A DNA stretch of 38,487 nucleotides from Armatimonadota bacterium (lineage in GTDB: Bacteria > Armatimonadota > UBA5829). Both the position numbers and the translations under genes were made by a program. Below, in pieces: positions 255 to 33,511 of the stretch. The notes under the pieces were generated by a model. It did not search any database, was not told where the DNA came from, and saw nothing but the letters and a program-made list of their open reading frames with translations. Where the stretch lies: assembly GCA_012522555.1 (NCBI GenBank), contig JAAYKG010000068.1:1-38487 (forward strand). Direction: 5' to 3'. How positions within the stretch are numbered: position 1 is the first letter of the stretch; every line of letters begins with the position of its first letter.

Positions 255-2039
255 ATGGCTAGAAAAGATCTGGGCGAAGCGCTGGTCGAAAAGGGCGTAA
301 TTACAGCAGAGCAGCTCTCTCAGGCTAGAGAAGTTCAGCGCAGCGCGCCTGGCGATATAGGACGAATAATTGTTGACCTCGGGTTTACCACCGACAAGGC
401 AGCCACGAAGGTGCGCGCCGAGACAATGAATTTGTCGTTTGTAGACTTGTCCACCCAAAAGATTGATCAGGCCGCCGTCAACTCGGTGCCGGAGCATATC
501 GCTAAAAGGCATAAAGTTTTGCCGATCGCCAAAAACGGCAACCGATTAATCGTAGCCGTAGTAAACCCCAGCGATCTGCTGGCTATTCAGGATATCAAAC
601 TCGCCAGTGGGGTCCAGCAAATTGCTATGGCGCTGTCCACTGAAGATGATGTGATGGATGCCATCGATCGAATGTATAAATCCGGCGATTCCACGGCGCA
701 ACCGGCAAATGTGGCCGCTACTGACCTTTCCGCAGTGGTGCCCAAAGAAGAGGGGGTGGCCAATACATCTGGGTTGTCAGCCGACATTCGACAGGCCATC
801 GCCGGTTTCGGAGCGCGCGAGGATATTCTTGACGAAGATACCGAGAGCATCGCCAAAGTATCCGAAGAGGCGCCGATTATCAGGATTGCCTATACCGTTA
901 TTCAGCAAGCTATCAGCGACGGGGCCAGCGATATCCACGTGGAGCCTGATAAGCGATCGGTGAGGATCCGCTATCGCATCGACGGTGTGTTGCACGAAGT
1001 GATGCCTCTGCCTAAGTATATCGAAAAGCCGCTGACCTCGCGTTTTAAGATCATGTCGGATATGAACATCGCTGAGCGCCGCGTTCCTCAAGACGGCCGT
1101 ATCCCTGTAACATTATCCGGCAAAGACTATGACTTGCGTGTATCGTGTCTGCCGACGGTCAACGGCGAAAAGATCGTTATGAGAATCCTGGACAAATCCA
1201 GCGTATTGCTGGGCTTGAATAAACTGGGATTCAGCCCGGAAGTGCAGGCGCAGGTCGAAGAGTTGGTCGCCCAGCCGAACGGCATGTTCCTCTCCACTGG
1301 CCCTACCGGCAGCGGCAAGACTACCACTCAATACTCGGTTCTGCACAAGCTCAATTCCGTCGAAAAGAACATCATCACTATCGAGGACCCGGTCGAGTAT
1401 CAGCTCAGCGGAATCGCGCAGGTTCAGGTGAACAAAAAGGCGGGTTTGAACTTCGCCAACGCGCTGGCGAGCTTCCTGCGGCAAGACCCGGATATCATCA
1501 TGGTTGGTGAAATGCGTAACCTGGAAACAGGGGAGATCGCCGTCGAGGCGTCGCTGACCGGCCACCTTGTTCTCTCGACACTGCACACAAACGACGCGCC
1601 GAGCGCTGTTACGAGAATGGTCGATATGGGAGTTGAGCCGTATTTGATCTCTGCTACTGTAATTGGCGTCCTTGCGCAGAGACTTGCTCGCAAGGTTTGC
1701 TCCAAGTGCAAAGCGCCGTATCAAGTTCCTGCATCGGAGCTTCGACGATTTGGCTTTAAGTCTAAGGATCCGAATGAACTGGTGACTTTATATCGCGGCG
1801 AAGGCTGTGACACGTGCAGGCATACCGGTTTCAAAGGCAGGCTTGGAATTTACGAATTGATGCGACTAAATGACGAGATTCGTGAGCTTGTTGTGCGTCG
1901 AGCGCCTCTAGCAGACATCAGAGAGGCCGCGAAAGCAAATGGCATGCACGAACTGAAAGATGACGGACTCGATAAAGTTCTGCAGGGCATCACGACCCCG
2001 GACGAGGTTATGAGGGTCGTCTTTACCGCAGGCGGTTAA
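255..2039 (+). CDS. pilB: Type IV pilus assembly/extension ATPase PilB (GspE family)
   Basis: A 594-aa cytoplasmic secretion ATPase expected to power pilin polymerisation at the inner membrane through PilC. Residues 1-145 resemble the MshEN/GspE N-terminal domain. The ATPase core carries Walker A GPTGSGKTTT from about residue 349, the Asp box IEDPVEYQ, and the Walker B region DPDIIMVGEMRN near 411. A conserved His box (GHLVLSTLHTNDAPSA) follows. A four-cysteine zinc element typical of PilB/GspE lies near 482-521 (CSKC and CDTC), followed by GFKGRLGIYE. The ATG at 255 follows GAGTGAGGG at a normal distance. Length and motif order are ordinary for PilB. It heads the pilB-pilT-pilC-pilD block. 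The zinc element and the intact GspE N-terminal domain separate it from the PilT paralogue downstream. Confidence 0.95.
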   Translation: MARKDLGEALVEKGVITAEQLSQAREVQRSAPGDIGRIIVDLGFTTDKAATKVRAETMNLSFVDLSTQKIDQAAVNSVPEHIAKRHKVLPIAKNGNRLIVAVVNPSDLLAIQDIKLASGVQQIAMALSTEDDVMDAIDRMYKSGDSTAQPANVAATDLSAVVPKEEGVANTSGLSADIRQAIAGFGAREDILDEDTESIAKVSEEAPIIRIAYTVIQQAISDGASDIHVEPDKRSVRIRYRIDGVLHEVMPLPKYIEKPLTSRFKIMSDMNIAERRVPQDGRIPVTLSGKDYDLRVSCLPTVNGEKIVMRILDKSSVLLGLNKLGFSPEVQAQVEELVAQPNGMFLSTGPTGSGKTTTQYSVLHKLNSVEKNIITIEDPVEYQLSGIAQVQVNKKAGLNFANALASFLRQDPDIIMVGEMRNLETGEIAVEASLTGHLVLSTLHTNDAPSAVTRMVDMGVEPYLISATVIGVLAQRLARKVCSKCKAPYQVPASELRRFGFKSKDPNELVTLYRGEGCDTCRHTGFKGRLGIYELMRLNDEIRELVVRRAPLADIREAAKANGMHELKDDGLDKVLQGITTPDEVMRVVFTAGG

Positions 2040-2057: not shown

Positions 2058-3236
2058 TTGTCTGAGGCAACAACAGTTGGCAGTATCGCGGATGTTAAGG
2101 TCGAACCCGGCAAAAAAGTTAGCGATCCGGTCTCGCTTGACGATACTCATATAGATGACCTGTTAAATGAAATGGTCCAAAGAGGATCATCGGACCTCCA
2201 TATATGCACGGGAGTTCCGCCGGTGATCAGGGTTGACGGGCAGATGACAGCCCTGAACTTCACCAAGTTCAATGCGATGCAGACACAGAGAATGCTCTAC
2301 GATATTTTGTCCGACGAGCAGATTCAGCGTTTTGAGGACACATGGGAGCTGGACTTTTCATACTCACTGGAGGATGTATCGCGTTTCCGCGTCAATATTT
2401 TCAAAGACAAAGGCACAGTTGCTGCGGCTTTCCGATTGATTCCGATCAAAATCCCCACCCTTCGAGAGTTGGGGTTGCCGGCAGTGCTGGAGACGATCAC
2501 ACGCAGGCCGAGGGGCCTGGTGTTGGTCACCGGGCCAACGGGTTCAGGAAAATCTACGTCTCTTGCCGCTATGATCAACCAGATCAACCACGAGCGCAGC
2601 AGCCATATAATCACGATTGAAGACCCGATCGAATATCTGCACCAGCACCGATTGAGCGTAATTAACCAACGCGAGGTCGGCCAGGACACCAAAGAGTTTG
2701 CAAATGCTTTGAGAGCGGCTTTGCGTGAAGACCCGGACGTGATTCTGGTTGGCGAGATGAGAGACCTCGAGACTATGTCCAACGCAATCAGAGCGGCGGA
2801 AACAGGCCACCTTGTGTTTGCGACTCTGCATACCAACAGTGCGGCCTCGACCGTGGACCGCGTGGTTGACTCGTTCCCTGCTTCTCAACAAGAGCAGATA
2901 CGACTGATGCTTTCAAACAGCCTTGAAGCCGTGCTTTGTCAGCAGTTGCTGCCGAGAGCGGGGATGCCGGGAAGAGTCTGCTGTATGGAGATTATGATAG
3001 CGACTCCAGCTATTCGTAACCTGATTCGCGAAGCCAAAAGCCACCAGGTGACCTCTATTATACAGACCAGTTCGAATGTAGGCATGCAGACGATGGACCA
3101 GCACCTTCGTGATCTCTACCAGAAGGGGATCATCACATATGATGAGGCGATGGCTCGGGCGATGAGCCAGGAAGAGCTTAAGAATATGATCACCTCCGCG
3201 ATGGGCGCGGCAGGCTCTCCGGGGCCGCGAAGATAA
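2058..3236 (+). CDS. pilT: Type IV pilus retraction ATPase PilT
   Basis: A 392-aa ATPase expected to depolymerise the pilus. It starts with TTG at 2058, chosen because GGAGGGACG ends just upstream and no ATG lies nearby. Key motifs are Walker A GPTGSGKSTS near residue 158, the Asp box IEDPIEYLH, Walker B DPDVILVGEMRD, and AIRAAETGHLVFATLHTN, which is diagnostic for PilT rather than PilB. The PilB zinc cysteines and large N-terminal domain are absent. About 25 extra N-terminal residues precede the usual PilT start. The gene lies 18 bases after pilB, so the two are probably co-transcribed. Having both ATPases predicts a retractile pilus (twitching, DNA uptake) rather than a pure type II secretion system. 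Confidence 0.95.
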   Translation: MSEATTVGSIADVKVEPGKKVSDPVSLDDTHIDDLLNEMVQRGSSDLHICTGVPPVIRVDGQMTALNFTKFNAMQTQRMLYDILSDEQIQRFEDTWELDFSYSLEDVSRFRVNIFKDKGTVAAAFRLIPIKIPTLRELGLPAVLETITRRPRGLVLVTGPTGSGKSTSLAAMINQINHERSSHIITIEDPIEYLHQHRLSVINQREVGQDTKEFANALRAALREDPDVILVGEMRDLETMSNAIRAAETGHLVFATLHTNSAASTVDRVVDSFPASQQEQIRLMLSNSLEAVLCQQLLPRAGMPGRVCCMEIMIATPAIRNLIREAKSHQVTSIIQTSSNVGMQTMDQHLRDLYQKGIITYDEAMARAMSQEELKNMITSAMGAAGSPGPRR

Positions 3237-3286: not shown

Positions 3287-4501
3287 ATGCCAAACTTTGC
3301 ATATACGGTGCGTGATGCGACGGGGCAGATTATTGCGGGAAACTCTGAGGCCGAAAACGAAGAGATTCTGCGTAAACGGCTGATCGAAAACAGCTTCACG
3401 GTCGTCGAGATCAAGCAGGTCAAAAGCTCCCAAAAAAAGGTCGGGGGAAGCCGTGGGATCAAAAAGACCGACCTGGCTGTTATGTGTCGACAGTTTTCGA
3501 CTATGATCGATGCGGGTGTTTCTCTCGTTCGATGCCTGAATGTTCTTGCCGAGCAAGCGACTAACCCCAGGCTCAAGGCGATTTTGAACGACGTAAAAAA
3601 CGAGGTCGAGGGCGGAAATACGCTCTCGAAAGCGCTGGAAAAATACCCCAACGCTTTCGACAGGTTGTTTATTGGTCTGGTCAACGCGGGTGAAGTCGGG
3701 GGTGCGCTTGAAGAAAGTCTGCAAAGGCTTTCACAGTTCCTTGAAAAAGACGTGGAATTGAGGCGTAAGGTCAAGAGCGCAATGACCTATCCGACGATTA
3801 TCATGGTCTTTGCGACAATGGTCGTGTTGGGCTTGATGACGTTCGTTTTGCCGAAGTTTATGGTGTTGTTCGATGACCTCGGGATTGAAGATTTGCCAGG
3901 CCCGACGGCGGTGTTGCAGGCTTCGAGCAACTTTATGGTGGCTAAATGGTATTGGGTGATTGTGTTCGGGGTGATCTTCTTCATCTCGGTGAAGCTTTTC
4001 GTGAAGACCAAGGTTGGCCGCCGTGTTTTTGACCGGCTGAAGTTGAAAGCTCCCGTGTTTGGTATGCTCAACCACAAAGTAGCTTTGGCGAGATTTGCCA
4101 GGACGCTGGCCACATTGCTTTCAAGCGGCGTCGGTATCCTGCAGGCCATGGAGACTGTGGCGGGCACTGTATCTAACGATATTATCTCCGATGCGATTTT
4201 GGAGGCCAGGGCCAGGATCAGAGAAGGCGACAAAATCGGCGAGCCGCTTGCACGCAGCGGGCTGTTCCCGCCTATGGTGGTTCAGATGATCGGAATCGGC
4301 GAAGAATCGGGGTCGCTTGACCCGATGCTTTCCAAGGTAGCTGATTTTTATGAAGACGAGGTCGATGCCGCTCTCGCCAGCCTTACCGCGGCGATCGAAC
4401 CTGTGCTTATCGTCGGGCTTGGAGGAGTGGTCGGCTTTATCGTCATATCGTTGTTCTTGCCTCTTGTTGCGGTCATCCAAAACCTGAGCGGGGCCGGGTA
4501 A
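3287..4501 (+). CDS. pilC: Type IV pilus inner-membrane platform protein PilC (GspF family)
   Basis: A 404-aa platform protein that would couple PilB and PilT to the growing or shrinking pilus. Two T2SSF repeats are visible, about residues 68-192 and 271-394. Each begins with the same pattern (LAVMCRQFSTMIDAGVSLVR and LARFARTLATLLSSGVGILQ) and contains the GE(V/E)(G/S)G motif (NAGEVGGALEE, GIGEESGSLDP). Three hydrophobic segments lie near 165-190, 222-242 and 375-398, as in PilC/GspF. The ATG at 3287 follows AGGAG nine bases upstream. The gene is 50 bases after pilT and 10 bases before pilD. Confidence 0.95.
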   Translation: MPNFAYTVRDATGQIIAGNSEAENEEILRKRLIENSFTVVEIKQVKSSQKKVGGSRGIKKTDLAVMCRQFSTMIDAGVSLVRCLNVLAEQATNPRLKAILNDVKNEVEGGNTLSKALEKYPNAFDRLFIGLVNAGEVGGALEESLQRLSQFLEKDVELRRKVKSAMTYPTIIMVFATMVVLGLMTFVLPKFMVLFDDLGIEDLPGPTAVLQASSNFMVAKWYWVIVFGVIFFISVKLFVKTKVGRRVFDRLKLKAPVFGMLNHKVALARFARTLATLLSSGVGILQAMETVAGTVSNDIISDAILEARARIREGDKIGEPLARSGLFPPMVVQMIGIGEESGSLDPMLSKVADFYEDEVDAALASLTAAIEPVLIVGLGGVVGFIVISLFLPLVAVIQNLSGAG

Positions 4502-4511: not shown

Positions 4512-5402
4512 ATGCTACCGATTTGGTTTGGAAGCCTGATAGCATTTGTATATGGCGCGATAGTGGGCAGCTTTCTGAACGTATGTATTTATCGCATGCC
4601 GGCGGATAAATCTATTGTGAATCCGCCCTCGCACTGCCCTAAATGCGACACTAGATTGCGGGGTTGGGATAATATTCCGCTGATTAGTTTTTTGTTGCTG
4701 GGAAGAAAGTGCAGATATTGCAAGGCTCCTATAAGCTGGAGATATTTCTCGGTTGAGTTGTTGACAGGGCTGTTGTGGGTAGCGACATATCTGAGGTATG
4801 GCGTTTCGATCGATGTATTCGCGTATGTATTGTTTATCTCAGCGCTGCTGATAGCGTTTTTTGTTGATCTGGACGAGTTCATAATTCCAGATCAGGTGTG
4901 GATTGCGGGGATAGTGATCGGAGTTGGCAAGGATATCGCGCACTGGGTTGCGGGGGATCTGCGGATGGTGTCGATTTCTGTGCCGGGAACACCGATGGCA
5001 ATTCCTTTGCCGCCCAGCATAGTCGGCGCTGTGCTTTGTTTTTCGCTGTTCTTTTTAATTGCGTATGTCAGTTATTACGCTTTCAAGCCGAAGGATAAAG
5101 AGGCGCTGGCTGAATATGAAGGAGCGATGGGCGGCGGGGACGTGAAGCTGGCTGCCGGTATTGGCGCGGTTGTCGGGTTGTGGCCTGCGTTGGTCAGTTT
5201 TTTTATTGCGGTTTTGTTGGGCACGATTATCGGCTTAACACACCTGGCGCTGCGGGCACGAGCGGAGAAGCGCGGGGTGCGATGGAGGACGGAGATACCG
5301 TTCGGCCCTTATATGGTTACGGGAGCCTTGGCTGTTATATTACTTTGGCCTGAGTTGGGCGCTGTGTGGAATGCATGGATCGGCTTGGTAGCGACGGGAT
5401 AG
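4512..5402 (+). CDS. pilD: Prepilin peptidase / N-methyltransferase PilD (A24 family)
   Basis: A 296-aa polytopic membrane enzyme that should cleave the leader of the class III signal peptides encoded downstream and methylate the new N-terminus. Cys42, Cys45, Cys67 and Cys70 (CPKC and CRYC) form the zinc element typical of the bifunctional enzyme. The two aspartyl-protease motifs are DLDEFIIPD near residues 119-127 and GGGDVK around Asp210. Several hydrophobic helices follow. It starts 10 bases after pilC with only a weak ribosome-binding site (CAGAG), which suggests translational coupling. At least three of the four pilin-like proteins that follow carry a cleavage site for it. Confidence 0.95.
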   Translation: MLPIWFGSLIAFVYGAIVGSFLNVCIYRMPADKSIVNPPSHCPKCDTRLRGWDNIPLISFLLLGRKCRYCKAPISWRYFSVELLTGLLWVATYLRYGVSIDVFAYVLFISALLIAFFVDLDEFIIPDQVWIAGIVIGVGKDIAHWVAGDLRMVSISVPGTPMAIPLPPSIVGAVLCFSLFFLIAYVSYYAFKPKDKEALAEYEGAMGGGDVKLAAGIGAVVGLWPALVSFFIAVLLGTIIGLTHLALRARAEKRGVRWRTEIPFGPYMVTGALAVILLWPELGAVWNAWIGLVATG

Positions 5403-5455: not shown

Positions 5456-5489
5456 ATGGGGCTGATATCGCCTTTGGAGGTGATTGGAG

Positions 5490-6248
5490 ATGAGGATTTT
5501 GAATAATAGAAGGGGTTTTTCTCTGGTCGAGCTTTTGACGGTCATTGCTATCATCGCGATTCTGGCCTCGATCATATTCCCTGTTATGAGTATGGTGAGC
5601 AACAAAGCGCGGATGAACAAGTGCATTACGCAACTACACCAGATCGGCCTTGCTGTGCAGATGTTCAAGCAGGATAACCGAAAATATCCGGACATTCTGG
5701 GTGTTGAGATAATGCACTCCGGAGGGAATATCATACCTATGGACCAGCCGTCCCCTCCTGCAAGCCCTCGGGCGGTTGGGTTGTTCCCGGAGTATGTGAA
5801 GGCGGCGCGAATGTATCATTGCCCAAACTCAAAATTTCTCGACCCGACAACGTATATCCAGGCAAGTCCGGCTTATGACCCGCTCGGGGATGGACAGGGC
5901 ATCGATGCATACTCATACAACAGCTATGACTTTATGATATATGGGGAAAATGACATTCGACAGCACTACACCAAATCATGGGCAGCCACACCTGCGGATG
6001 TTGAGTCACAAGGGCCTGGAGCGCCAAGCGATCCGCAGCGCGACTATGAGCGGCAGCTTAAATTCAAGACCCCGCCTGATAACACAGTAATCACCTGGTG
6101 CTCGTGGCATGAAGTCTATACGGGCAGCGGCGCCAGCCTGACAGTCTCCGGAAGAGCCCCTGTGCTGTTTTTGGACGGCCATGTCGACTCACTGCAGGCC
6201 CCTGAGGTGGAACAATACCGATGGAGGACACTGCCCAAGAAAGAATAG
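5490..6248 (+). CDS. Prepilin with H-X9-DG C-terminal motif
   Basis: A 252-aa pilin-like protein. Its start RRGFSLVELLTVIAIIAI is a class III signal peptide: PilD would cut after the Gly, leaving Phe+1 and Glu+5, and the hydrophobic helix would anchor it and pack in the pilus core. The C-terminus carries HEVYTG...VLFLDGHVDSL, the His-spacer-Asp-Gly pattern of the H-X9-DG (DUF1559-like) prepilins. From general knowledge these are common in Planctomycetes, Lentisphaerae and Armatimonadota. ATG 5490 is preferred over the in-frame TTG at 5484 because GGAGG (5476-5480) is nine bases from the ATG but only three from the TTG. It could be the major pilin or a GspG/GspH-like pseudopilin; the sequence does not decide. 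Confidence 0.88.
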   Translation: MRILNNRRGFSLVELLTVIAIIAILASIIFPVMSMVSNKARMNKCITQLHQIGLAVQMFKQDNRKYPDILGVEIMHSGGNIIPMDQPSPPASPRAVGLFPEYVKAARMYHCPNSKFLDPTTYIQASPAYDPLGDGQGIDAYSYNSYDFMIYGENDIRQHYTKSWAATPADVESQGPGAPSDPQRDYERQLKFKTPPDNTVITWCSWHEVYTGSGASLTVSGRAPVLFLDGHVDSLQAPEVEQYRWRTLPKKE

Positions 6249-6469: not shown

Positions 6470-8347
6470 ATGAAGGGTCTTAGCAACAACAGGAAGGGCA
6501 CCACTTTAGTAGAGATACTTGTGGTGATGTTGGTTCTGCTGGTCGGGATCATGACGGTTATCCAGTTGTTCCCCACCGGGTTCCGTGTCGTGCGGGCTGC
6601 CGAGAGCCAGACTATCGCCTCCAAACTTGCGCAGGCCGAGGTTGAGCGCTGGAAGAATATGCCGGGAAATCTGCCCGACGGAATTTTGCCTGTCACCTCG
6701 GACGGGACTGTTATAAACGATCAAAACCCCGGCCCCCCATTCGAGGGGTTTTCCCCAACTTTGGTAAATGGTCTCTATGAGGCCGGAAATGTGATCAACT
6801 CTCGCTATGTCCGCAATGAGACCACTCCGATTCCTGTGGGCAGCTATTTCACCAGCGGAGCAGGCGCGGCATACGGGTCGAAGTATACCCTTGCGTTCAG
6901 CCCGATCGAAGTTACCGCTGACCCTGAGAACCCCGGATTGTATTTGGGGCTTACTATTAAGAGTGGGGATTTGCAGAGGCGGGTCGGTAGTGCGGATTCG
7001 TATATTTATTTGCGCCCCGGACAGTATGGGATCGATTATGACCTGACAACTGTCGGCGGAGACCCCGCGTTTATGGTATGCTTCAGCTACGACCGAAACC
7101 CGGGGCATGCGTATCATATAAGTTATTCATATTGGGTCGAGCACAAGCGCACCGGCGAGGCGACGCTGCTCAGCGAGGTCGATCAAACGGTGCGGCCGGA
7201 TCCGAATGGAGATTGGGTTCCAGTGCCGATCAGGCCTCCGAGCGATTATCCCCCGTCTGACTATGATGTTGTTGAAGTTGAGAGCGGGGCCGATTCGTGC
7301 GCGAGGGGCTTTGTGCAGGTTCCGCCGCAGGGTTGGTCGGGTGACCCGTATGAGTTTGCGTTGGTGGACTCGATTATGGGGGTTGTGGCGTTTAACCCGC
7401 GCGCTCGGAATATGACTGAGCGCACCGCCAGAGGAGTGCGAGCGATAACGGCGCGAATCGACTATAAGATATATGATCCGCGAATCCTGCGCGAGGACAA
7501 AATCGTGCCGGCAGTCAACGAAGACCCGTTCAACACTGGCCAGAACACACACTCAGCAATTAAACTGGCGCTGAGGTTTATTTTGAATGCGGGCAGCCCG
7601 TTGAGCATAACCGATGGTGATGCTACAGATAATCCCGATGAACCGACCTTTGAGGGGCTGGTAAAAAAGAGGCTCGGAATGCCGCTGTCCAGTCCGGCGG
7701 ATTTGATGGTTGCGCAGTCGGTTTTGATTATTGATCTGGCCACGGGATTGAGAGTGGAGATACCCTCCGATGCTCCGCCATTTTATGCTATCGACTACAA
7801 GGCGGGGGTTGTGCATCTGCCTGAGACAGCCAACCTGATCGACTGGAACAGTGAACCGCTCCCTGACACCCGCGATATTCCACTAGCCGGGCGGCACCTG
7901 AGATTTTTCTATCGCGCGGATGGTGATTGGTCGGTGCAGTGTCAGAAGGCATATTCCTATTATCTTAGAAAATGGGATACATCGCGAGTCGACTACAGAC
8001 ATTTTAAGCTGCGAGCGCCCCAGGGAGGGCCGTATCAACTGCTGTTTGCCAGATGCGACTCCGGTAAGAATGTTACTGTTGACTATAGTTATTGGCTTGG
8101 CGGTGCGGAGCATAAGGTGGTGGGAAAGTCGTACAGGCTGTCTGATGATTGGGTGGCCGACCCGGATGCGCCCGCGGTGAGATGCTCATATTTCAACCTT
8201 GATATCCCACCGGGAGCCACTATTGATCCATCGACGAGGATCGTGGTCGCCGGCGCTTCTTTCAGGGCCAGAGTGACTTGGCGAGACGGCAAATCCTGGC
8301 GATTTGTTGATATTGATACGGATCTGACGAGGAATTCGTCACCATGA
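6470..8347 (+). CDS. Very large PilV/GspI-like minor pseudopilin
   Basis: A 625-aa protein with the class III signal NRKGTTLVEILVVMLVLLVG (predicted cut after Gly, Glu+5 present) and a hydrophobic helix. The sequence TIASKLAQAEVERWKNMPG follows, like the ASxLAQxxxE segment of PilV/GspI. Ordinary PilV proteins have about 130-200 residues, so roughly 450 extra residues form an exposed beta-rich body. Two internal segments look alike, around residues 210-245 (HISYSYWVEHK) and 534-565 (VTVDYSYWLGGAEHK). The motif YAIDYKAGVVHL near 441 resembles one in the next protein and in the propeller protein. The ATG at 6470 follows AGGAAG. The stop overlaps the next start (ATGA), so the two are translationally coupled. 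The identity of the exposed region is unknown. Confidence 0.8.
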   Translation: MKGLSNNRKGTTLVEILVVMLVLLVGIMTVIQLFPTGFRVVRAAESQTIASKLAQAEVERWKNMPGNLPDGILPVTSDGTVINDQNPGPPFEGFSPTLVNGLYEAGNVINSRYVRNETTPIPVGSYFTSGAGAAYGSKYTLAFSPIEVTADPENPGLYLGLTIKSGDLQRRVGSADSYIYLRPGQYGIDYDLTTVGGDPAFMVCFSYDRNPGHAYHISYSYWVEHKRTGEATLLSEVDQTVRPDPNGDWVPVPIRPPSDYPPSDYDVVEVESGADSCARGFVQVPPQGWSGDPYEFALVDSIMGVVAFNPRARNMTERTARGVRAITARIDYKIYDPRILREDKIVPAVNEDPFNTGQNTHSAIKLALRFILNAGSPLSITDGDATDNPDEPTFEGLVKKRLGMPLSSPADLMVAQSVLIIDLATGLRVEIPSDAPPFYAIDYKAGVVHLPETANLIDWNSEPLPDTRDIPLAGRHLRFFYRADGDWSVQCQKAYSYYLRKWDTSRVDYRHFKLRAPQGGPYQLLFARCDSGKNVTVDYSYWLGGAEHKVVGKSYRLSDDWVADPDAPAVRCSYFNLDIPPGATIDPSTRIVVAGASFRARVTWRDGKSWRFVDIDTDLTRNSSP

Positions 8348-10269
8348 TAAAAATCAGCGAAACCACAATCAGGATCAATAGGACATCGGTAATGCGAGCG
8401 CGAGGCGGGTTCACTCTGGCGGAGTTGCTGGTGGTGATGGCGATCTCGGCAATCTTGATGATGCTGGTGCTGGAACCTGTTGTGCAATCTTTCCGGCTCA
8501 CGAGACAGGCGCAGGCTATGGTCGATGCGCAGGACGCCGCGCGTATGTCCCTCGCCTCTATCAGCAGGGAGCTTGGGCAGGCGATGTATGTCTATGATAA
8601 CGCGCAGGTTCCTATGACGCCAGCTTCCGGGGGATTGCCTGCCGGAGTAGTCGCTAATAGAACGCAGACGCCGATTATGCTGCCTGTCTCTCAACCCGGT
8701 TCCAGCGCTCCTCATTGGTTTGTGCTGCCGTATGCGATGATCGATTTCATATTGCCCAACATCTACATGCACTGCAACAATCCTGCTCACCCGCCAGGCA
8801 AACCGCGCAGTTATCCGAGAGATATTGTGATCGATGATGGCGGCAACAAGCGCACCGAACTGCGGGGCTGGCCGGATTGCCCATATTGCAAAGCGGACGG
8901 AAAAAAAGCTGACGATGTGGAGGCTAAGCCAAAGGTGCCGCTTGAGCCATCGGTGACGCATGTGCGTTATTTTTTGGCTCTTCGTTATAACAATCTGGGC
9001 GTTCCGCTGACCACTGGAGCGCCGCCGAACTATGGCTGGGTCCCTCCTTTTGGGACAAATGTTATTGAGGGGACCGAAAACGGGGTGGTCTTGTATCGCG
9101 CTGAGTATAACCCTTACGACGACAACCTGTTTCCGAACAGTATGAACGTTAGTGAGCGCATTAACGATCCGTATTTCTTCTACAGGACAGGGACAGCCCC
9201 CAATGGCCATGAATATCATGAAAACTGGCGGAATACAGCGCGCGTTATGGGAATCGGCAAGTATTCTGACTTTATAGCTGCCGAGTTCAGCCCTGATGGC
9301 ACTGTCAGGTCGGTGGATCCGACAGTCAAATTCCAGACTTCGTCCGTAGAAAACGACACGTTTAACCCGGCGTACTCAAATGATGCCAAAAACGATTGGC
9401 CCAGCGCACCGGCTATGGTGTTTTCCGGAACCTATGGATATTGGACGCCGGATCATCGAGTGGATGTGATGCGTGGGGCGTATTGGGACAATCCGCCCGG
9501 CGGTGTAGATTTCTACACTGTGATGGAAGGGGGCGTGCAACTGATAATCAGGAGAACGCCGAGCGGCGACTATTGGAGCGAAACGACCGAGTTTAATGTC
9601 AGCGAATATCTGTCCAGAGGGTTTGTATCGGCTGACCAGGCTAACAGACCGCCGCTTGAAATGGCGTTTACGGTCGACGCAAACAGAGGCACGATCAACT
9701 TCGCGCTTCAACCTCCGCGCCCGGGGCAGGCGGCATCCGGCCCTGTCGGCATAGACAGCGCGATAGCTATTAATAAAGATTTCCACTCTCATTATGCTGC
9801 AGACCGCGGCGGAGCCATCAGATGGACGCTGCTGCCGACGTTCAACCCGGATGTATCCGATCAATTCCTGCAAAATGCTCGAATTGTGCCGGGAAGTGAG
9901 AGAATTGTCGGACCGGAGATGACGTTTGGCGAGAACTTCGCTCGCCCAGTGCGCTATGAGCGTGTGCCGTTGTCTTTGGGTAATCCCGGCATCAACCAAT
10001 ACATGATCGACTACGACACGGGAAGACTCTATTTCAGCCGCGACCCAAGCCTGGATCTGCCTGAGGTGGACGGCGGGGGGAATCAGTGTCGGGTCGAGGC
10101 AAGCTACTTGGTATATTTTAATAGAGCAGACGACGTAATCAGGGCCGATTATCTGACCAAAAGCCTGATTACGGTAAACTTGGGGATGAGGATGTTCGAC
10201 CCGGAGACAGGGAAACCGTTCACAGTGGATTTGACGGACAAAGTGAAAGTCAGAAACGCGCTAAGGTAG
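8344..10269 (+). CDS. Very large PilW/GspJ-like minor pseudopilin with a Cys/His cluster
   Basis: A 641-aa protein with class III signal RARGGFTLAELLVVMAISAI (Glu+5 present). After the hydrophobic helix comes AQDAARMSLASISRELGQAM, the arrangement seen in PilW/GspJ. Those families usually have about 200-350 residues, so this one is oversized. Cys144, His149, Cys179 and Cys182 (CNNPAH...CPYC) form a possible metal site or disulfide set in an exposed loop. The motif MIDYDTGRLYF lies near residue 554. ATG 8344 has GAGGAA nine bases upstream and overlaps the previous stop. An in-frame ATG at 8392 after AGGA would give a shorter leader and cannot be excluded. The gene lies 5 bases before the next gene in the same operon. 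Confidence 0.8.
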   Translation: MIKISETTIRINRTSVMRARGGFTLAELLVVMAISAILMMLVLEPVVQSFRLTRQAQAMVDAQDAARMSLASISRELGQAMYVYDNAQVPMTPASGGLPAGVVANRTQTPIMLPVSQPGSSAPHWFVLPYAMIDFILPNIYMHCNNPAHPPGKPRSYPRDIVIDDGGNKRTELRGWPDCPYCKADGKKADDVEAKPKVPLEPSVTHVRYFLALRYNNLGVPLTTGAPPNYGWVPPFGTNVIEGTENGVVLYRAEYNPYDDNLFPNSMNVSERINDPYFFYRTGTAPNGHEYHENWRNTARVMGIGKYSDFIAAEFSPDGTVRSVDPTVKFQTSSVENDTFNPAYSNDAKNDWPSAPAMVFSGTYGYWTPDHRVDVMRGAYWDNPPGGVDFYTVMEGGVQLIIRRTPSGDYWSETTEFNVSEYLSRGFVSADQANRPPLEMAFTVDANRGTINFALQPPRPGQAASGPVGIDSAIAINKDFHSHYAADRGGAIRWTLLPTFNPDVSDQFLQNARIVPGSERIVGPEMTFGENFARPVRYERVPLSLGNPGINQYMIDYDTGRLYFSRDPSLDLPEVDGGGNQCRVEASYLVYFNRADDVIRADYLTKSLITVNLGMRMFDPETGKPFTVDLTDKVKVRNALR

Positions 10270-10274
10270 CCGCA

Positions 10275-12998
10275 ATGCCATACAAGAAGCATTCAAATAG
10301 ACAGATATTGAGAAGCGACAGCGGGCAGACCCTGATCATCGCGATTATGGTGATGTTTATCCTCGCCGTGCTCGCGACTGTGTTCATCGCTTTGGTCGCC
10401 CGCAACCTGACCAGGTCGTCACGAATGTCGAGTACGGATGCTGTCGCTGCGATAGCGGAGGCGGGCATTCGCTATGCTGATGAGATGATGACGACTTCTG
10501 AGGATGGCGCCGATTGGCGGCCTGCTCCGGATAATCTACCGCCTGCTCTAAGAGAGGATGACCCCGATTTTGAATGGCTCCGGCCATATACGCCGGCGGA
10601 AGCAGGGGATACCGGCCCGACCGGCGGATATACGAGATTCAACTCCGGCCAGGGCAGGTTCCTGCTGCGTGTGTCATATAATCCGGACCCCAGGATACCG
10701 ATGTCCAAGTATATCAAGATAGAGTCTGTGGGCAGATGGGGAAATATCGATCCGGACGACCCCACAACCTTTCACGATGTCAGCAGCAAAAGCCTGCGGC
10801 GCGAGATAACCGCCTACAAGCCGATCGGTCTCACCGAAAGCTGCCGCTTTATTACCAACAAAAGCAACCGTAACGTCGATGTTGCCCTGGGTGTGCCTGG
10901 ATATAGAACTGAGTTTGGCCGGCCGACGTCGAGTAAATATCAAATGCGAGGCGGGCCAATTCGGGTGAATGCTAATCTGCTTTGGCATGGGCTTTATGGC
11001 GGTGGGCCGAGTGTGGACATCTATTTACGCGGCCTGATGGCGAACGCGATTACAGATCCGGAGGTGGGGACTCCTACGGATAGGATCCCGGTTGATGATG
11101 TGCTGGTGTCAGGGGAGTTCAAAGCGGATAGCGACCCCGCCAGGGACTCGGATCGCGTAACGGTTCGATTGCATCGATTGATTGACACTGGGGGGTCTTA
11201 TTCCACCAGCAGCGTAGAGGTGCGGGAGAGTGATGACCCAGACTTTGATACCGTGGAAGGGTTTTATCGGGACGGCAGCAACTACCCGGATGTAAACAGA
11301 AGGCCGCGTGGAGTGAAGCGAATTGAGCCGCCGTTGGTCGATCAAGCCGATTCCACGAATACCACTACACGCTATCGCGTTTTGACGTATAGCTCGGGGG
11401 AGCGAGTGCGCAGGGGCGGCACTGGTCGCTGGGTTAACCTCGGACAGTTAGGCTGGGGTAAGGGGGTTTATATCGGCAATACCTCCGACAAACAGGACGA
11501 AAGCGAGACCCTGTTCGGCGGTGTAACAGTTCGCGCTGATATAATGCAACCGGATAATATGATGACCAGCAATTGGAAAGGGCCTTATTATAACCCTCCA
11601 GCGACGATAATCAACCTGCTGCCGAACGATAGAGAAACTATCAATGGTCGAGATCAGTATTATTTCACTATAACTCGCAGCGACTCGACGAATGGGCGCA
11701 AAGCTGTTTGGTCGGATTCGGCGGGTGTTGAGCGGCCGGATTGGGGATCTACAGTGCGAATGCCCTACCCGGATGCGGAGAATGGCAGATGGATCGGGCC
11801 GAATCACTGGATCGATGGTAATGGCGTCATCTTCGCCGAGGGCAACATCCGTGTTCGAGGAATGCTGCCGAAGGGCATGAAACTGACGATCGTGTCCAAT
11901 CAGAATATATATATCGATGGCAACGTGCTGAAATATCGGGAGCCTGATTGGAATGGTTCTGATAACGACGCCTACAGAGGGGCGGATCGAACCGGCGGGC
12001 TTGCGCTGCTGGCCCGGCAGAACGTAATCGTCAACACGACGCAGTTTTTCATGCCGTTGAGCGATCTTGGGGCTGATGATTATGGCCCGGATTCTATTAT
12101 CGGACAATCTTCATCCCATGTGGTGGTTCGCAATAATCCGCAGAGCGCGTTCAGATGCGGCTTTGAATTTGGCCCGTTTGAATCTGAAGGAAATAGCCCT
12201 CCGACGGATTGGCTGCTTTTTGTGCGCCAGTCCGGTGAGTTTGGTGCAGCATATATAAACGCGTGGCTAAACCCGACCGGCGCTACCCCCGGCTGGGGTA
12301 TTTTGGGGCTGAACAATGTATTTCCGGGGTTGCCTCGACACGTTTGGGGTGTGGGTGATCCACGATACGGATTTGGAGCGGCGCCTCCCGGAGCGGGGAT
12401 AGGAAGCTCATTTGCACACAATGTTTATGATTTGGGAGCTATGAATGCGGCGCTAAACATCGCCGCCGGGATGCCCAATATCCTTCAGATCGCGCTGGAC
12501 TCGAATGTCTATACGCGAAGCAACTATTGGATGGGCGGAGTGGCTGTTATGCCGATGGATGTGCGAATCGAAGCCATTTTGTATGCCCAAGAAGGCTCGC
12601 TGTATGTGATTCCGGGCTATTGGATGAATCCCAATCCGGCAGATACCGACCCGACGAATCGGCCGCCGGGTGTGGACCCGCGGTTCCCGTTATATGGACA
12701 AGCGCCGGATATACGTATCATAATAGACGGCGCTGTGAGCGAAAACCTGCCGGCTGCGGTGAGCGACGTGCAGGCCTGGATGGCAAAGTGGGGCCGGATT
12801 CCTGCTTTTTATGGATCGAGCAACATTTCGACAGCCCATGCGAACGAAGGTATCACGTTCCTGTATGATGATTATGTCGGCTGGCCGCTTGATGACGCAG
12901 GAGTCCCGCTACGCGTTGACAAATTTAACCGGCCCCTGCCGATCACGCCGAAGCTGCCTGTGAGCGGAAGCCTGATCTACTTCGGCGATGTGATGTAG
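10275..12998 (+). CDS. Very large PilX/GspK-like pilus protein
   Basis: A 907-aa protein whose start, SDSGQTLIIAIMVMFILAVLATVF, is a pilin-like hydrophobic helix. A Ser-Arg rich stretch and DAVAAIAEAGIRYADEMM follow, resembling the AAEAG(I/L) segment of PilX and GspK. It lacks Glu+5, as GspK does; in type II secretion that subunit caps the pseudopilus tip. The long exposed body includes VIFAEGNIRVRG near residue 517 and NIYIDGNVL, a pattern like the repetitive beta-helix regions of DUF4900-type proteins. That comparison is tentative. PilX is normally about 150-200 aa and GspK about 300. Position (third after PilV- and PilW-like genes) and helix type support the assignment. Confidence 0.72.
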   Translation: MPYKKHSNRQILRSDSGQTLIIAIMVMFILAVLATVFIALVARNLTRSSRMSSTDAVAAIAEAGIRYADEMMTTSEDGADWRPAPDNLPPALREDDPDFEWLRPYTPAEAGDTGPTGGYTRFNSGQGRFLLRVSYNPDPRIPMSKYIKIESVGRWGNIDPDDPTTFHDVSSKSLRREITAYKPIGLTESCRFITNKSNRNVDVALGVPGYRTEFGRPTSSKYQMRGGPIRVNANLLWHGLYGGGPSVDIYLRGLMANAITDPEVGTPTDRIPVDDVLVSGEFKADSDPARDSDRVTVRLHRLIDTGGSYSTSSVEVRESDDPDFDTVEGFYRDGSNYPDVNRRPRGVKRIEPPLVDQADSTNTTTRYRVLTYSSGERVRRGGTGRWVNLGQLGWGKGVYIGNTSDKQDESETLFGGVTVRADIMQPDNMMTSNWKGPYYNPPATIINLLPNDRETINGRDQYYFTITRSDSTNGRKAVWSDSAGVERPDWGSTVRMPYPDAENGRWIGPNHWIDGNGVIFAEGNIRVRGMLPKGMKLTIVSNQNIYIDGNVLKYREPDWNGSDNDAYRGADRTGGLALLARQNVIVNTTQFFMPLSDLGADDYGPDSIIGQSSSHVVVRNNPQSAFRCGFEFGPFESEGNSPPTDWLLFVRQSGEFGAAYINAWLNPTGATPGWGILGLNNVFPGLPRHVWGVGDPRYGFGAAPPGAGIGSSFAHNVYDLGAMNAALNIAAGMPNILQIALDSNVYTRSNYWMGGVAVMPMDVRIEAILYAQEGSLYVIPGYWMNPNPADTDPTNRPPGVDPRFPLYGQAPDIRIIIDGAVSENLPAAVSDVQAWMAKWGRIPAFYGSSNISTAHANEGITFLYDDYVGWPLDDAGVPLRVDKFNRPLPITPKLPVSGSLIYFGDVM

Positions 12999-13023
12999 TT
13001 TTTCGAGTGAGAGGAGTCCTGAT

Positions 13024-16000
13024 GTGAAGCTGATCAGCCGCGTTCTCTCGGCAATTATTATAGTTGGTACCCTACTAGCCCTAAGTATGCCTGCGCAAGC
13101 TGGCGCGTATTTGTATGCGGGTAAGCGCAAGAAGGTTTACTGCGGCATAGTCGAGATCGTTAACCCGCTGACTGGAGTTGTTCAAAACGACCAGGCCATT
13201 AAGGATGCGGCGCTGCTGTTTGCGAAGCTGGATGCGCTCAACAGTATGAAGCCGAGCGGATGGACGCTGGAAAACCCGCTTGCTCTATCGCAAAATAAAG
13301 CGGACCCGTATTATTGGCGGATACGGGTGGCTTCTGCGCGAAATTTATCACGCGTAAATGTGTTGTATCTGCCCGGCTCTGGGACTCTTAACCTGACTGA
13401 TGATGAACGCGAGAACCTCAGGCGCTTTGTGGACGCGGGCGGGGTGCTGTGGGTTGATAATGCAAACCCAAACTCGCCGCTGAAATTCAACGCTTCTGGG
13501 CCGTTTTTCATAAGTAAATTGAACTTCAAGACAGGGGGGAGCGGTGTTGACGTTCCTGTTTCACGCCACCACCCACTTCTCGCAACTCCATACTGGCTCA
13601 CCGACTCGGAGATTATGAGCCTGGGATTGCTGGTAGGCGGAGGAGGAATCGGCCGCAGCTACTGCGATCTTGATATTAGCTGGACAAACGATGAGCCGAC
13701 TACATTCGATATTTTATTCCCTATTATTGATGGGGCGGATAACTCGGGAGCGTTGAGCGGCCAGCCGGCGGTTGTTGCTAATTCTTACGGCAGTGGTCGT
13801 GTGGTGGCCAGTGCCAATGCAGTGGGGCGAGGCTGTATGCTGAATGAGCCTTACAGCCTGGCCAGCCTAAAGTTCGCGTTCAATATAATGTCTTATGCTT
13901 CGACGTGGACCGACCTTCGCAAGAACCCAAGGCACTCCGGGTCGTCTATCGACACACTGGGAGCCAATCGACTGGTTGAGAAGTGGTCGATTCCTGTTAC
14001 ATCGCACGGGATTCGGCGCGAAGCTGCTCCGCTGCTATATAAAAACACTGTGTTTTACACCTCCGGCGACACACTGTGTGCATTGGAGCAAAACGGGGAC
14101 ACCAAGGGCGGGATGTGGCCGGCAGGCTCCAATGGCGAGGTCATAATCTGGAGTTGGCAGGATCCGGACGGAGGGGTTCTGAGCACTCCGACTATTGCGA
14201 CCGTTCAAGACCCAAACGACGATTGCCGGCCGATAGAGGCGGTTATCGTTCAAAATAATCAGGGCAACGTATTCTTACTTAATGCCTTTCCAATCGACGC
14301 GAACAATGTCGTTCTTATGCCCAATGAGCCATTTTACGTGATGGAAACAGCTCCGACCAGTGGGGGCGGCAGCAAGGGCAGATGGCCAAGCCCACCGATA
14401 TACATAAACGGCTGGATTTATGCGTTGGGAGGCGACGGCAGGTTGTATGCGGAGAATCCGTGCCTGAAGAAGTGGTCGGATGGTCACGCCGGCGTCAACA
14501 ATGTCTCTTCCGATTGGCAATGCCCCGATCTCAAACTGCAACCTGGTTGGACCGCCGAGCCGAGATGCGGCCCGAGCTTCGGCACGATGAGAAACGCCAA
14601 CACAGGCGCGGTTTTGGGGATGGTGTATTGGTTCACATCTCCCACCACTATGCCTATGATAGCCGGAGATATCAACGATCATATTTGCTCACTTCCCGTA
14701 TCAGTGAGCAGAGAACGCCCAAAGCTGACAAATATCCAGCCTGGCAGGGATGCTGCGGAGATTCGAGTCACCTACCCTGGTTGGTTAAGCAATGTGCATG
14801 TGAGTATTTTTGAGGCCAATGGCATTACCCCGGTCCCGTTGACCGAGGATCCAAAGCCAAACCAGAACATAGCAGGCGCCACGCAGCCCGGCACGATTGC
14901 GTTGAGGATACGGCCTCCACTGCCCCGGCAGTATGTGGTCTATTGCAGCTATTCCATTTCATATGGCAACAGGGCTCCCGCGCTGAACCCGCGTGGAGGT
15001 GAGATCGAGCCTAAGAGTGCATCCACCACGGGCGGGGGCAGCACGCCGCTCAGCCACGGCCCGACAGAGATAGCAGGGACCCCGGTTATGGGGCCGGACA
15101 ATCAACTGTTCTTGACTGGGACCCGCGAATCGTCATACCCGGCCGGCGGCTCCATACTGACGTATGCCAATGACGGAGGGGTAGCGACGAATGGCAAGCT
15201 GAAATGGCACTACTTCCTACACTCGGGGGTCGACCCATCATTCGGAGTGAATGTCGATTTGCCTGGTGTGATCCAAACCCCGAAGGGGCCGATGATCAAC
15301 CCGCAGCCCAGTTCGTCTCCTGCGTTCTCAGACGGAAAAGTTTTTGTCACCGTGTCCGGATCGGAGGACGGCCCGAGAGGAGCGCTGTTGTGCCTGCGAT
15401 CGTCCGCGGAATGCGTTGTCAGAATAACCGAAGGCGGGGGATATGACTCTAACGGCAAGCCTATCAGGCGCCCCAAATCCCTTTGGAAGGGAAACAACGA
15501 GGGCCACTACAACGTCCGAATATGGCAGCCGAATCTGATTAACGATGCCAGCAGTGGGATACCACTGATGGATGCGAGAGATATATCCAGTGGCGACGTT
15601 TCTACCACTGGTATAAGCGTCGATTACGACACCGGCACCATAACGTTTGATGATTTCAGCAAGACAAAAATCCAGAAGATGATGGTGGATACCAATACAT
15701 TTTCTCCGTCGCTGCCGGTTTGGGTCTATCTGGACAACGTGGAGGTTCCGATTGATTGGACGACGTGGGGGCCGGGAGCGCTCGATATGTCCAACGCCAG
15801 AACCGCATCCAGCGACGCGGTAGATTTGAGCGGTTGGAACAATCTGCTGTGGTATTATGTGGTCGACGATCACAATTGCAGCGGCATTCATTCGCCACCA
15901 ACTGTCATCGGAAATACTGTTTACTTCACTTGTGATGATGGCTACCTTTATGCTCTCGACACCGAATCCGGGGAATCCAGGGGCAGGCTCACCTCCAAAA

Positions 16001-17562
16001 AGCCGATCTGGACAACCAAAGTGGGCAGCGGGCAGATGTCACAGGACAGCGCTCTGTCGGTAGCAGGCGCAAACGGGGTTCTGATGGTCCCTGGGCCGGA
16101 TGGTTTGTATGCTTATACAGACACGACCACTCTGGTGACAGATAACAATCGCATTACTGAAATAGACGGGCAAGGCGAAGTGACGTGGGCAGTGGATTCG
16201 ATCGATTGGCCGGCAAACGTTCCGCAGAGCACCGGCAAAGCTATGGCACTCAAACAGGGGCCGATAAACAAGCCCTCAAGAGCGAGATACGTTGGCACGG
16301 GAGAGATTCTGTTCTGCAACTCCGGTGCGAACCAGGTATGCAAGATTGATAAGTCCGGCAGAGTCGGCTTTGACGGCACCGGAGGAAGATACCTTCGGTG
16401 GATATACACCAAATTCGCCGATCCTAAGAAACTGCTTCGCCCTGGGCAACCGACGCAGCTCAGCGGCCCACGAGACGCGATAATGTGGCAGGAGATGGAA
16501 AGTGTCGCTTCCGGCGGTGTCGCATCGGTTGTGCATTGCCTGATAGCGGATTCCGGTAACTCCAGGATTCTGGACCTGACGTATCGTGTGAAGAATGGTC
16601 AGTTTGTAGATTCGGCGGGGGAGGCGATAGACCCTGCCAGAAATCCTGCTCATCAGAGGTTTATAGACCCCGAAAGCGGGTTCGTGCTGCCGGAGCTTAA
16701 TTGGGCATCAAAGACGGATTCGCTTAACGAACGATATGCTTTTGATTGCTTGCAATTGGTCTCGGTGCCGGGGACGAACAGTATGGTGCAGGATATATGG
16801 GTGGCCAGTTCGAACTTCACCTCCAGCGGCACCGACATGGGAGGTGTAAGTCCTAAAGGTAAGGCTGGCCTGGGCGGGGCGATAATGGCGATTGGATATA
16901 GACACCGCACTATGACGGCAGGTCAGGCTGCCGGAGAGTGGGACTATTCCGACCCGCAATCCGGCACGATTACAGCGCGCTGCGACCGAGTTCAAATTAA
17001 CGGAGCTGTTGTACCACTTGCGAACCCGAGATTCTTTGATGTGCTAGTTACGCCGCCTTCGACGCCGGGCGGCAGCCCCGCGCTCGCGTTGTTGATATGC
17101 GACAACTATGGAGTTTATGAAGCGAAAATCGGCGGGCCGGAGCCGGTGGTTGGTCCAAGGCTGCTGGCTGAGGATTATAGTAAGTTGCTGAGATTGCCTG
17201 ATCCTGCGACCAAGATTAACTCGGCTTGCCCGAATTACCCACCAACGCCGACCATGCCCATACCGCTGCCGGCGACGATTCCTTTCATACCTACGTCTGT
17301 TCAGAAGCTGCCGAATGGTAAGTGGTTGATTACCAACAGCTACAGCGGTTCGGATTCAAGCGGCGCGGTTAAGTTTAGCGGCGAAGCGTTTGAATATGAT
17401 CCGGAGGGCCCGATCGCTCAAGAAGTGACATGGTGTTCGCCAAGATTGGAATGGGTGGATCCTCCGCCGAGCGCAGACCCCTGCGCTGTGCCGTTTGAGT
17501 GGAAGCAGGTTACGACAAATACCTACAACCTGCGCCAGCCCAAGTCCGCATTCCGGCAGTAG
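13024..17562 (+). CDS. Secreted 1512-aa protein: DUF4159-like N-terminus plus PQQ-type beta-propeller (PilY1-position protein)
   Basis: The GTG start at 13024 is set by GAGGAG seven bases upstream; the overlapping ATG at 13022 is out of frame. Residues 1-27 form a Sec signal ending in SMPAQA. Residues 35-295 include LNLTDDERENLRRFVDAGG and LWVDNANPNS, similar to DUF4159/glutamine-amidotransferase-like surface proteins. From about 295 onward, BamB/PQQ-like propeller strands recur, such as TVFYTSGDTLCALEQNGD, WIYALGGDGRLYAEN and TVYFTCDDGYLYALDTESG (near 955). An Ig-like insertion lies around 560-650. ISVDYDTGTITF near 866 matches a motif in the neighbouring pseudopilins. The order PilV-PilW-PilX-propeller mirrors pilVWX-pilY1, so a pilus-tip adhesin role is a reasonable inference. 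I see no PilY1 von Willebrand domain or calcium loop. Confidence 0.7.
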   Translation: MKLISRVLSAIIIVGTLLALSMPAQAGAYLYAGKRKKVYCGIVEIVNPLTGVVQNDQAIKDAALLFAKLDALNSMKPSGWTLENPLALSQNKADPYYWRIRVASARNLSRVNVLYLPGSGTLNLTDDERENLRRFVDAGGVLWVDNANPNSPLKFNASGPFFISKLNFKTGGSGVDVPVSRHHPLLATPYWLTDSEIMSLGLLVGGGGIGRSYCDLDISWTNDEPTTFDILFPIIDGADNSGALSGQPAVVANSYGSGRVVASANAVGRGCMLNEPYSLASLKFAFNIMSYASTWTDLRKNPRHSGSSIDTLGANRLVEKWSIPVTSHGIRREAAPLLYKNTVFYTSGDTLCALEQNGDTKGGMWPAGSNGEVIIWSWQDPDGGVLSTPTIATVQDPNDDCRPIEAVIVQNNQGNVFLLNAFPIDANNVVLMPNEPFYVMETAPTSGGGSKGRWPSPPIYINGWIYALGGDGRLYAENPCLKKWSDGHAGVNNVSSDWQCPDLKLQPGWTAEPRCGPSFGTMRNANTGAVLGMVYWFTSPTTMPMIAGDINDHICSLPVSVSRERPKLTNIQPGRDAAEIRVTYPGWLSNVHVSIFEANGITPVPLTEDPKPNQNIAGATQPGTIALRIRPPLPRQYVVYCSYSISYGNRAPALNPRGGEIEPKSASTTGGGSTPLSHGPTEIAGTPVMGPDNQLFLTGTRESSYPAGGSILTYANDGGVATNGKLKWHYFLHSGVDPSFGVNVDLPGVIQTPKGPMINPQPSSSPAFSDGKVFVTVSGSEDGPRGALLCLRSSAECVVRITEGGGYDSNGKPIRRPKSLWKGNNEGHYNVRIWQPNLINDASSGIPLMDARDISSGDVSTTGISVDYDTGTITFDDFSKTKIQKMMVDTNTFSPSLPVWVYLDNVEVPIDWTTWGPGALDMSNARTASSDAVDLSGWNNLLWYYVVDDHNCSGIHSPPTVIGNTVYFTCDDGYLYALDTESGESRGRLTSKKPIWTTKVGSGQMSQDSALSVAGANGVLMVPGPDGLYAYTDTTTLVTDNNRITEIDGQGEVTWAVDSIDWPANVPQSTGKAMALKQGPINKPSRARYVGTGEILFCNSGANQVCKIDKSGRVGFDGTGGRYLRWIYTKFADPKKLLRPGQPTQLSGPRDAIMWQEMESVASGGVASVVHCLIADSGNSRILDLTYRVKNGQFVDSAGEAIDPARNPAHQRFIDPESGFVLPELNWASKTDSLNERYAFDCLQLVSVPGTNSMVQDIWVASSNFTSSGTDMGGVSPKGKAGLGGAIMAIGYRHRTMTAGQAAGEWDYSDPQSGTITARCDRVQINGAVVPLANPRFFDVLVTPPSTPGGSPALALLICDNYGVYEAKIGGPEPVVGPRLLAEDYSKLLRLPDPATKINSACPNYPPTPTMPIPLPATIPFIPTSVQKLPNGKWLITNSYSGSDSSGAVKFSGEAFEYDPEGPIAQEVTWCSPRLEWVDPPPSADPCAVPFEWKQVTTNTYNLRQPKSAFRQ

Positions 17563-23842: not shown

Positions 23843-23844
23843 GA

Positions 23845-26249: not shown

Positions 26250-26275
26250 ATCTATTCCTCATCGCCAAACCGTCG

Positions 26276-27865: not shown

Positions 27866-27878
27866 AGCCAAACCTCTC

Positions 27879-29141: not shown

Positions 29142-29170
29142 GTATGAGTCCCCAGTCTATTGTGAAATGC

Positions 29171-29242: not shown

Positions 29243-29249
29243 TACGCGG

Positions 29250-30806: not shown

Positions 30807-30830
30807 CACTACACCTCTAAGCTCAAGAAT

Positions 30831-30848: not shown

Positions 30849-30850
30849 TT

Positions 30851-30879: not shown

Positions 30880-30892
30880 GTTCACTTCGGCC

Positions 30893-32376: not shown

Positions 32377-32389
32377 ATATTAACGCAGC

Positions 32390-32416: not shown

Positions 32417-32437
32417 AACTTCACTCCTTATTGATGA

Positions 32438-33511
<1,074 letters not shown>

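Follow-up and report, generated by a model that had tools for sequence, protein, structure and literature searches.

The closest described counterparts of the locus analysed here are the minor pilin/PilY1 complexes that prime and tip type IVa pili (T4aP), exemplified by those encoded by fimU-pilV-pilW-pilX-pilY1 in Pseudomonas and by clusters 1-3 in Myxococcus (PMC7541494). In the model proposed for M. xanthus, PilX is placed on top, in contact with PilY1 (PMC7541494); beta-strand complementation has been predicted as the mode of this contact, and the heads of PilY1 vary between orthologues (PMC13190605). The subunit capping the tip complex is one without Glu5 (PMC10191384). ComZ from Thermus thermophilus, a GspK-like tip-type pilin of about 554 aa, holds one large beta-solenoid module as an insertion; in the sections of the ComZ-PilA2 report considered here, its place at the tip is argued for, and a protein in the PilY1 position is not described (PMC6561018). 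The modular pilins PilB and PilC of Streptococcus sanguinis display on the filament recognised domains (vWA, lectin) that are grafted on a pilin stem (PMC8179133). Other sets of pilin-like proteins are those of the Verru_Chthon cassette, with proteins A-D (TIGR02600, TIGR02598, TIGR02599, and TIGR02596), and of the cyanobacterial Hps locus for polysaccharide export, which includes HpsC.

The window (the whole stretch of 38,487 nucleotides analysed here, from an Armatimonadota bacterium) holds a locus that probably encodes the tip (priming) complex of a retractable T4aP, formed by minor pilins with grafted modules (V, W, and X) and capped by a PilY1-like protein (Q). As in the complexes from Pseudomonas and Myxococcus, the order V-W-X leads up to a large secreted propeller protein, V and W possess Glu5 and X lacks it, a PilB/T/C/D/M/Q system is shared, and an EF-hand-like loop is found in most Q homologues. 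Unlike those complexes, the armatimonad V, W, and X are several times larger, the PilY1 domain PF05567 is undetected, Q combines a conserved head (DUF4159) with two propellers and is followed by a second giant propeller protein (R), and the genes are gathered in one large operon. The divergent pilV-pilW-pilX-(pilY1-position) cluster that a previous sequence-only reading had proposed is upheld, and lies inside a type IV pilus operon.

Nine genes of the plus strand run from base 255 of the window. The first one encodes a PilB/GspE-type extension ATPase with a MshEN (c-di-GMP-type) domain (255..2039; Pfam T2SSE, E 1.4e-134; MshEN, E 5.9e-21), whose best NCBIfam match is type_IV_pilB (639 bits, cut-off 675), with gspE at 608 bits (cut-off 630). 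The c-di-GMP motif of this protein is above the NCBIfam cut-off and, together with the MshEN domain, suggests that pilus extension is under c-di-GMP control. The following genes encode the retraction ATPase PilT (2058..3236; TIGR01420, 511 bits, cut-off 319), the platform protein PilC (3287..4501; NCBIfam PilC of the Thermus type, E 8.9e-126, under the strict equivalog cut-off), the prepilin peptidase PilD (4512..5402; A24_N_bact and Peptidase_A24, both above cut-off), and a DUF1559-type pilin or pseudopilin of 254 aa (5484..6248; N_methyl, E 5.4e-8; IV_pilin_GFxxxE above cut-off). The latter, with its GspG-like N-terminus, is a candidate for a major pilin or a GspG/H-like protein. The run ends with V (6470..8347), W (8344..10269), X (10275..12998), and Q (13024..17562), which correspond to the open reading frames of 625, 641, 907, and 1512 aa reported earlier and are all confirmed on the plus strand. 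The V and W frames share 4 bases, and the gaps between W and X and between X and Q are of 5 and 25 bases, so the four genes look translationally coupled.

V and W are oversized minor pilins in the PilV/GspI and PilW/GspJ positions, respectively, as judged from their prepilin sites and gene order. Cleavage is predicted between G10 and T11 in V (...NNRKG/TTLVEIL), and between G22 and F23 in W (...RARGG/FTLAELL), both proteins holding a class III leader and Glu5. In a motif search, the Glu at mature position +5 was found in 16/16 V homologues and 19/19 W homologues. The Pfam N_methyl model gives a weak match to V (E 0.0022, under cut-off) and a better one to W (E 2.3e-6). The N-terminus of V is the nearest of the three pilins to a curated family, matching the PilV model TIGR02523 with an E of 4.2e-8 and 33.8 bits, under the cut-off of 52.2. 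No curated PilV/W/X or GspI/J/K model passed its cut-off for V, W, or X; W passes only the generic prepilin motif, and the V and W profiles matched only the shared pilin helix among the sequences of solved structures. The membership of V, W, and X in a tip complex is consequently drawn from their leaders, order, and context rather than from family models. That three consecutive genes have pilin-type N-termini in the order PilV/GspI, PilW/GspJ, and PilX/GspK, as had been claimed from the sequence, is sustained by the prepilin sites and by the adjacency of these genes in relatives.

X, the oversized pilin in the PilX/GspK position, has a leader of the prepilin kind with a predicted cleavage between G17 and Q18 (...RSDSG/QTLIIAI), and does not hold Glu5. 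Position +5 is hydrophobic in every homologue that the motif search was able to read (19/19 homologues in one set and 44/52 in another), and also, on sight, in the remaining eight rows, which were missed by the regular expression. The distribution of Glu5 in V, W, and X (present, present, and absent) corresponds to that of the GspI-J-K/PilI-J-K tip complex, in which K is the cap subunit. Pfam N_methyl does not match X, nor does any family model match the X of the window; GspK models match 5/52 X homologues (best E 0.0089), and the X profile gave no significant match to any solved pilin among the sequences of solved structures.

The AlphaFold2 model of X, built from 52 homologues and covering 900 residues from residue 8 of the protein, reached a pLDDT of 85.8 and a pTM of 0.87. 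A 63-residue N-terminal helix, a beta-sheet, putatively pilin-like domain, and a long all-beta part are predicted in this order. The helix, assigned by DSSP to residues 5-67 of the model, corresponds to residues 12-74 of X (10308..10496). A conserved stretch in which short strands alternate (11751..12032; GVIFAEGNIRVRG...LTIVSNQNIYIDGN...) appears solenoid-like in the model. The best solved-structure matches obtained with Foldseek are jelly-roll carbohydrate-binding modules (CBM36, 1w0n, TMt 0.61; CBM35, 4qb2, TMt 0.51), with a weak resemblance (E about 1e-3, TMt 0.5-0.6) that is partial in most ranks, and there is no pilin structure among the 50 matches listed. X can be read on this model as a pilin stem carrying a grafted jelly-roll and solenoid-like assembly, with a hint of carbohydrate binding. 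Comparison of the model with viral protein folds gave generic and uninformative matches to tail spikes and solenoids. X resembles ComZ as a GspK-like pilin with a large beta-solenoid-like module; however, it is longer, it holds jelly-roll-like parts as well, and it matches no solved structure by sequence. V, W, and X also resemble the modular pilins of S. sanguinis in the grafting of modules on a pilin stem but, unlike theirs, the large modules of the armatimonad proteins are not recognised over cut-off by any family of Pfam or NCBIfam.

Q starts with a GTG codon and holds a Sec-type signal peptide, recognised by eye. Its head matches DUF4159 at residues 104-193 (13333..13602; Pfam, E 8e-8, above cut-off), and a profile of this head matches every homologue scanned with the exception of one weak case. 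No paper on DUF4159 was found in the open literature searched. The remainder of the protein is occupied by a first propeller region at residues about 310-800 (13951..15423), placed by profile mapping, the structural model, and BamB-like Foldseek matches, and a second one with PQQ and NHL-like repeats at residues about 930-1510 (15811..17553), placed by PQQ_2 and the model. PQQ_2 matches weakly at residues 956-1075, under cut-off, and NHL was found in 6/20 homologues. The AlphaFold2 model of residues 313-1512 (pLDDT 82.2, pTM 0.80) retrieved double-propeller proteins and BamB in Foldseek. The homologue scans, the model, and the Foldseek matches thus support a first propeller of the BamB/PQQ type and a second of the PQQ plus NHL type. 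The DUF4159-like N-terminus and the presence of a propeller, both noticed in the sequence-only reading, are retained, while the single PQQ-like propeller described there has to be replaced by two.

Two further features of Q were revealed by its homologues. An EF-hand-like DxDGDGxxDDGxxD loop, kept in 39/47 aligned sequences, is degenerate in the window (14095..14151; EQNGDTKGGMWPAGSNGEV), in its congener, and in five other rows. At the other end, Q holds a conserved tail, NLRQPKSAFRQ in the window (17527..17559), with the consensus QPxxADR at or near the end of the protein; P..A.R lies close to the C-terminus in 40/51 segments scanned. Because beta-strand complementation has been predicted between PilX and PilY1, this tail is a natural candidate for docking. 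In a rumen lineage (L096 and L064), Q has strongly diverged, and the weak case mentioned above belongs to it: in L096, an Abditibacteriota locus from goat rumen (Q at 12612-17132), the DUF4159-type head can hardly be made out (E 0.028).

The PilY1 family is defined by the domain PF05567. This domain matches neither the Q of the window nor 20 Q homologues, and was found in 0/101 genomes of the phylum, a search in which the control genomes were equally silent, so that absence from the phylum is not proven. Q could nevertheless be truly orthologous to PilY1 and have diverged too far for this to be detected, in which case the locus would be a canonical pilVWXY1 set with large proteins. Its place after pilX, its signal peptide, its propeller towards the C-terminus, and the EF-hand-like loop of most homologues, which parallels the calcium loop of PilY1 (PMC8833165), would fit with this explanation. 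However, Q has two propellers instead of one, its calcium-type loop, lost in the genus of the window, lies around residue 360 at the beginning of the first propeller rather than inside the C-terminal propeller as in PilY1, and no PilY1 structure is found among the first 50 Foldseek matches of the Q model; together with the silence of PF05567, these differences make orthology unlikely. Q would be PilY1-like, with a homology to PilY1 not demonstrable by the PF05567 search and possible at the level of the fold. In all likelihood it functions like PilY1, and it is kept here out of the PilY1 family. A swapping of heads from species to species, as in PilY1, was also considered for Q and rejected, as the head-profile scan showed that the head is conserved phylum-wide.

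The distribution of these genes extends well beyond the genome of the window. X was found in 141/151 genomes of the phylum, and in 112 of the 116 with a completeness of 90% or more and a contamination of 5% or less. Q was detected in 48/61 relatives at the sensitivity used, a lower count that fits its lower conservation. Gene order was counted in the best 80 of 157 named loci, and only where the contig reaches far enough: V and W are adjacent in 61/61, W and X in 67/67, X and Q in 59/59, and Q and R in 38/48. Homologues are therefore not found mostly away from pilin genes, a result that would have spoken against the earlier proposal. As these loci were fetched with X, the counts speak for the constant setting of X; a search made with Q gave, in the genomes compared, positions that agree with those of X. 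The recurrence of the same order in every long-enough locus examined argues against a chance arrangement. By record label, the best 80 of the 157 loci belong to Armatimonadota, with several from uncultured bacteria, some from Abditibacteriota, and one from Propionibacteriaceae. The last of these (L086, DIVW01000042.1, labelled Propionibacteriaceae bacterium UBA6122) is an armatimonad-type pilus operon close to that of the window, and its label is probably wrong.

The V-W-X-Q set is a core trait of Armatimonadota, and the lineage specificity suggested earlier holds in the sense that the set is phylum-wide in the armatimonad genomes surveyed. Between the window and one relative (L062), V, W, X, and Q share 40-53% identity and PilC and PilT 77-79%, the identity of PilC with relatives in general being about 60-77%. 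The lower values of V, W, X, and Q are as expected for exposed parts. In a search of a plasmid collection, X was unmatched and Q was matched only over a 4% PQQ stretch.

In relatives, the complete operon reads pilB-T-C-D-A-V-W-X-Q-R-M-(N-O-P position)-PilQ-aroB. R, which directly follows Q in the 38/48 loci given above, is a second giant secreted propeller protein that spans about 2,200-3,600 aa and holds PQQ-type and Golvesin_C domains; the highest length, 3,598 aa, comes from an open frame that is truncated at the end of its locus and whose start is hence uncertain. Next to R comes PilM, and then three small ORFs that occupy the PilN, PilO, and PilP positions, a small protein with an STN domain, a secretin of the PilQ type, and finally aroB. 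Of the genes after R, PilM and the secretin are the only ones to pass family tests. The three small ORFs have no Pfam match, so that their assignment as PilN/PilO/PilP is positional. PilM (221 bits, cut-off 133) is encoded as a separate gene, with no GspL fusion, and the secretin holds a secretin domain over the Pfam cut-off, PilQ being its best full-length model, ahead of GspD, both under cut-off. In the genome of the window, R (about 2,476 aa), PilM, and the secretin are found together on another contig (C57), where R occupies positions 9601-17031 of the minus strand of L177 (G000:C57:8000-27999) and holds a PQQ propeller and two Golvesin_C stretches. The ancestral operon therefore appears to be split in this genome.

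A different machine could in principle be served by these pilins. Type II secretion systems (T2SS) are devoid of PilT and have M and N fused into GspL. V, W, and X might accordingly be pseudopilins of the GspI-J-K type with enlarged recognition modules, working in a T2SS-like pseudopilus with Q and R as exported effectors. Some Armatimonadetes systems were indeed reassigned to T2SS in a published survey (PMC6668835), the GspE model scores the PilB of the window almost as high as the pilus model does (both under cut-off), and other secretins and GspE-type ATPases are encoded in this genome. On the contrary, PilT is over its cut-off within the same operon and is present in 151/151 genomes of the phylum, PilM is separate and over its cut-off, and the secretin scores higher with PilQ than with GspD. 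PilT and the separate PilM point to a T4aP rather than a T2SS, and an extension ATPase, a platform protein, and a prepilin peptidase are present as well, PilB and PilC being assigned by best match under strict equivalog cut-offs. A T2SS-like pseudopilus is thus an improbable explanation. The reassignment in the survey may concern other loci, given the further secretins and ATPases of this genome: besides the secretin on C57, three others and several GspE/PilT-type ATPases are found on contigs C43, C147, C64, C82, and C258 of G000, pointing to additional type IV filament or secretion systems.

The pilins could also form a cassette with a role other than a pilus, like the Verru_Chthon cassette or the Hps locus, that shares the pilus machine. 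The N-terminus of W gives a match to HpsC in 15/19 homologues and to Verru_Chthon C in 16/19, and a single X hits Verru_Chthon A (E 0.006). However, the likeness of the W of the window to HpsC and Verru_Chthon C is confined to the N-terminal helix region, spanning only the first 60-100 residues and far under the cut-offs, the genes lie inside a complete T4aP operon, and no glycan export gene set was recognised alongside in the loci read, all of which makes this role very unlikely. That Q is an unrelated BamB-like envelope protein, merely co-transcribed with the pilins, is hardly credible in spite of the resemblance of its propellers to BamB, as X and Q are adjacent throughout the phylum in all the loci counted, Q is a single copy beside the pilins in the genome of the window, and its two propellers, head, and conserved tail are unlike BamB.

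The probable function of the locus in building a T4aP tip complex can be depicted as follows. PilD, encoded in the same operon, would cleave V, W, and X at their leaders, and the resulting helices would pack as a trimer of the I-J-K type, as Glu5 and the homology of gene order suggest, with X on top and, in the absence of Glu5, capping the tip. The large modules that follow the pilin part, which in X would be the jelly-roll/solenoid assembly, are expected to project beyond the filament. Q and R, with signal peptides visible in their sequences, would be exported by Sec. Judging from its constant adjacency to X and from the M. xanthus model (PMC7541494), Q would then dock on X and form the extreme tip in the place of PilY1, joined or followed by the still larger R. 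As in the known T4aP cycle, the complex would prime PilB-driven extension, exit through PilQ, and grip a surface or a polysaccharide, so that retraction by PilT pulls. A polysaccharide is the best guess for the target, suggested by the CBM-like fold in the model of X. The action of Q as an adhesin, its location at the tip, and the formation of a complex are what we infer from this scheme, in which gene linkage provides the putative connection between Q and the pilins.

This locus therefore appears to be a real, phylum-wide variant of the T4aP tip complex that is as yet undescribed, a search of the open literature, whose coverage is incomplete, having returned no description of it. It is also conceivable, although somewhat short of likely, that in the whole phylum PilY1 has given way to a non-homologous tip, made of giant minor pilins with grafted carbohydrate-binding-like jelly rolls and of the unrelated giant propellers Q and R, docked through conserved tails like QPxxADR. 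The tip of a type IV pilus decides what the pilus grips. If a phylum builds its tips without PilY1, then priming, calcium-gated grip, and mechanosensing would be independent of that one family, and a comparison between Q and PilY1 would reveal the essential features of a tip. The locus would also provide, with its X-Q pair, a ready marker for tip complexes missed by PilY1-based searches, and is relevant to the assignment of some Armatimonadetes systems to type II secretion.

Downstream of Q, the window holds a gene for a secreted WbsX-type (glycosyltransferase/GH-like) protein with a NEW3/CARDB-like stretch (17662-20394), which stands in the usual place of R and is outside the conserved gene set. 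Further on, beyond the pilus operon, the minus strand (22538-37550) is mostly occupied by branched-chain amino acid genes, encoding two LeuA-type synthases, aconitase-type LeuC/D, isopropylmalate dehydrogenase, ketol-acid reductoisomerase, acetolactate synthase subunits, and dihydroxy-acid dehydratase.
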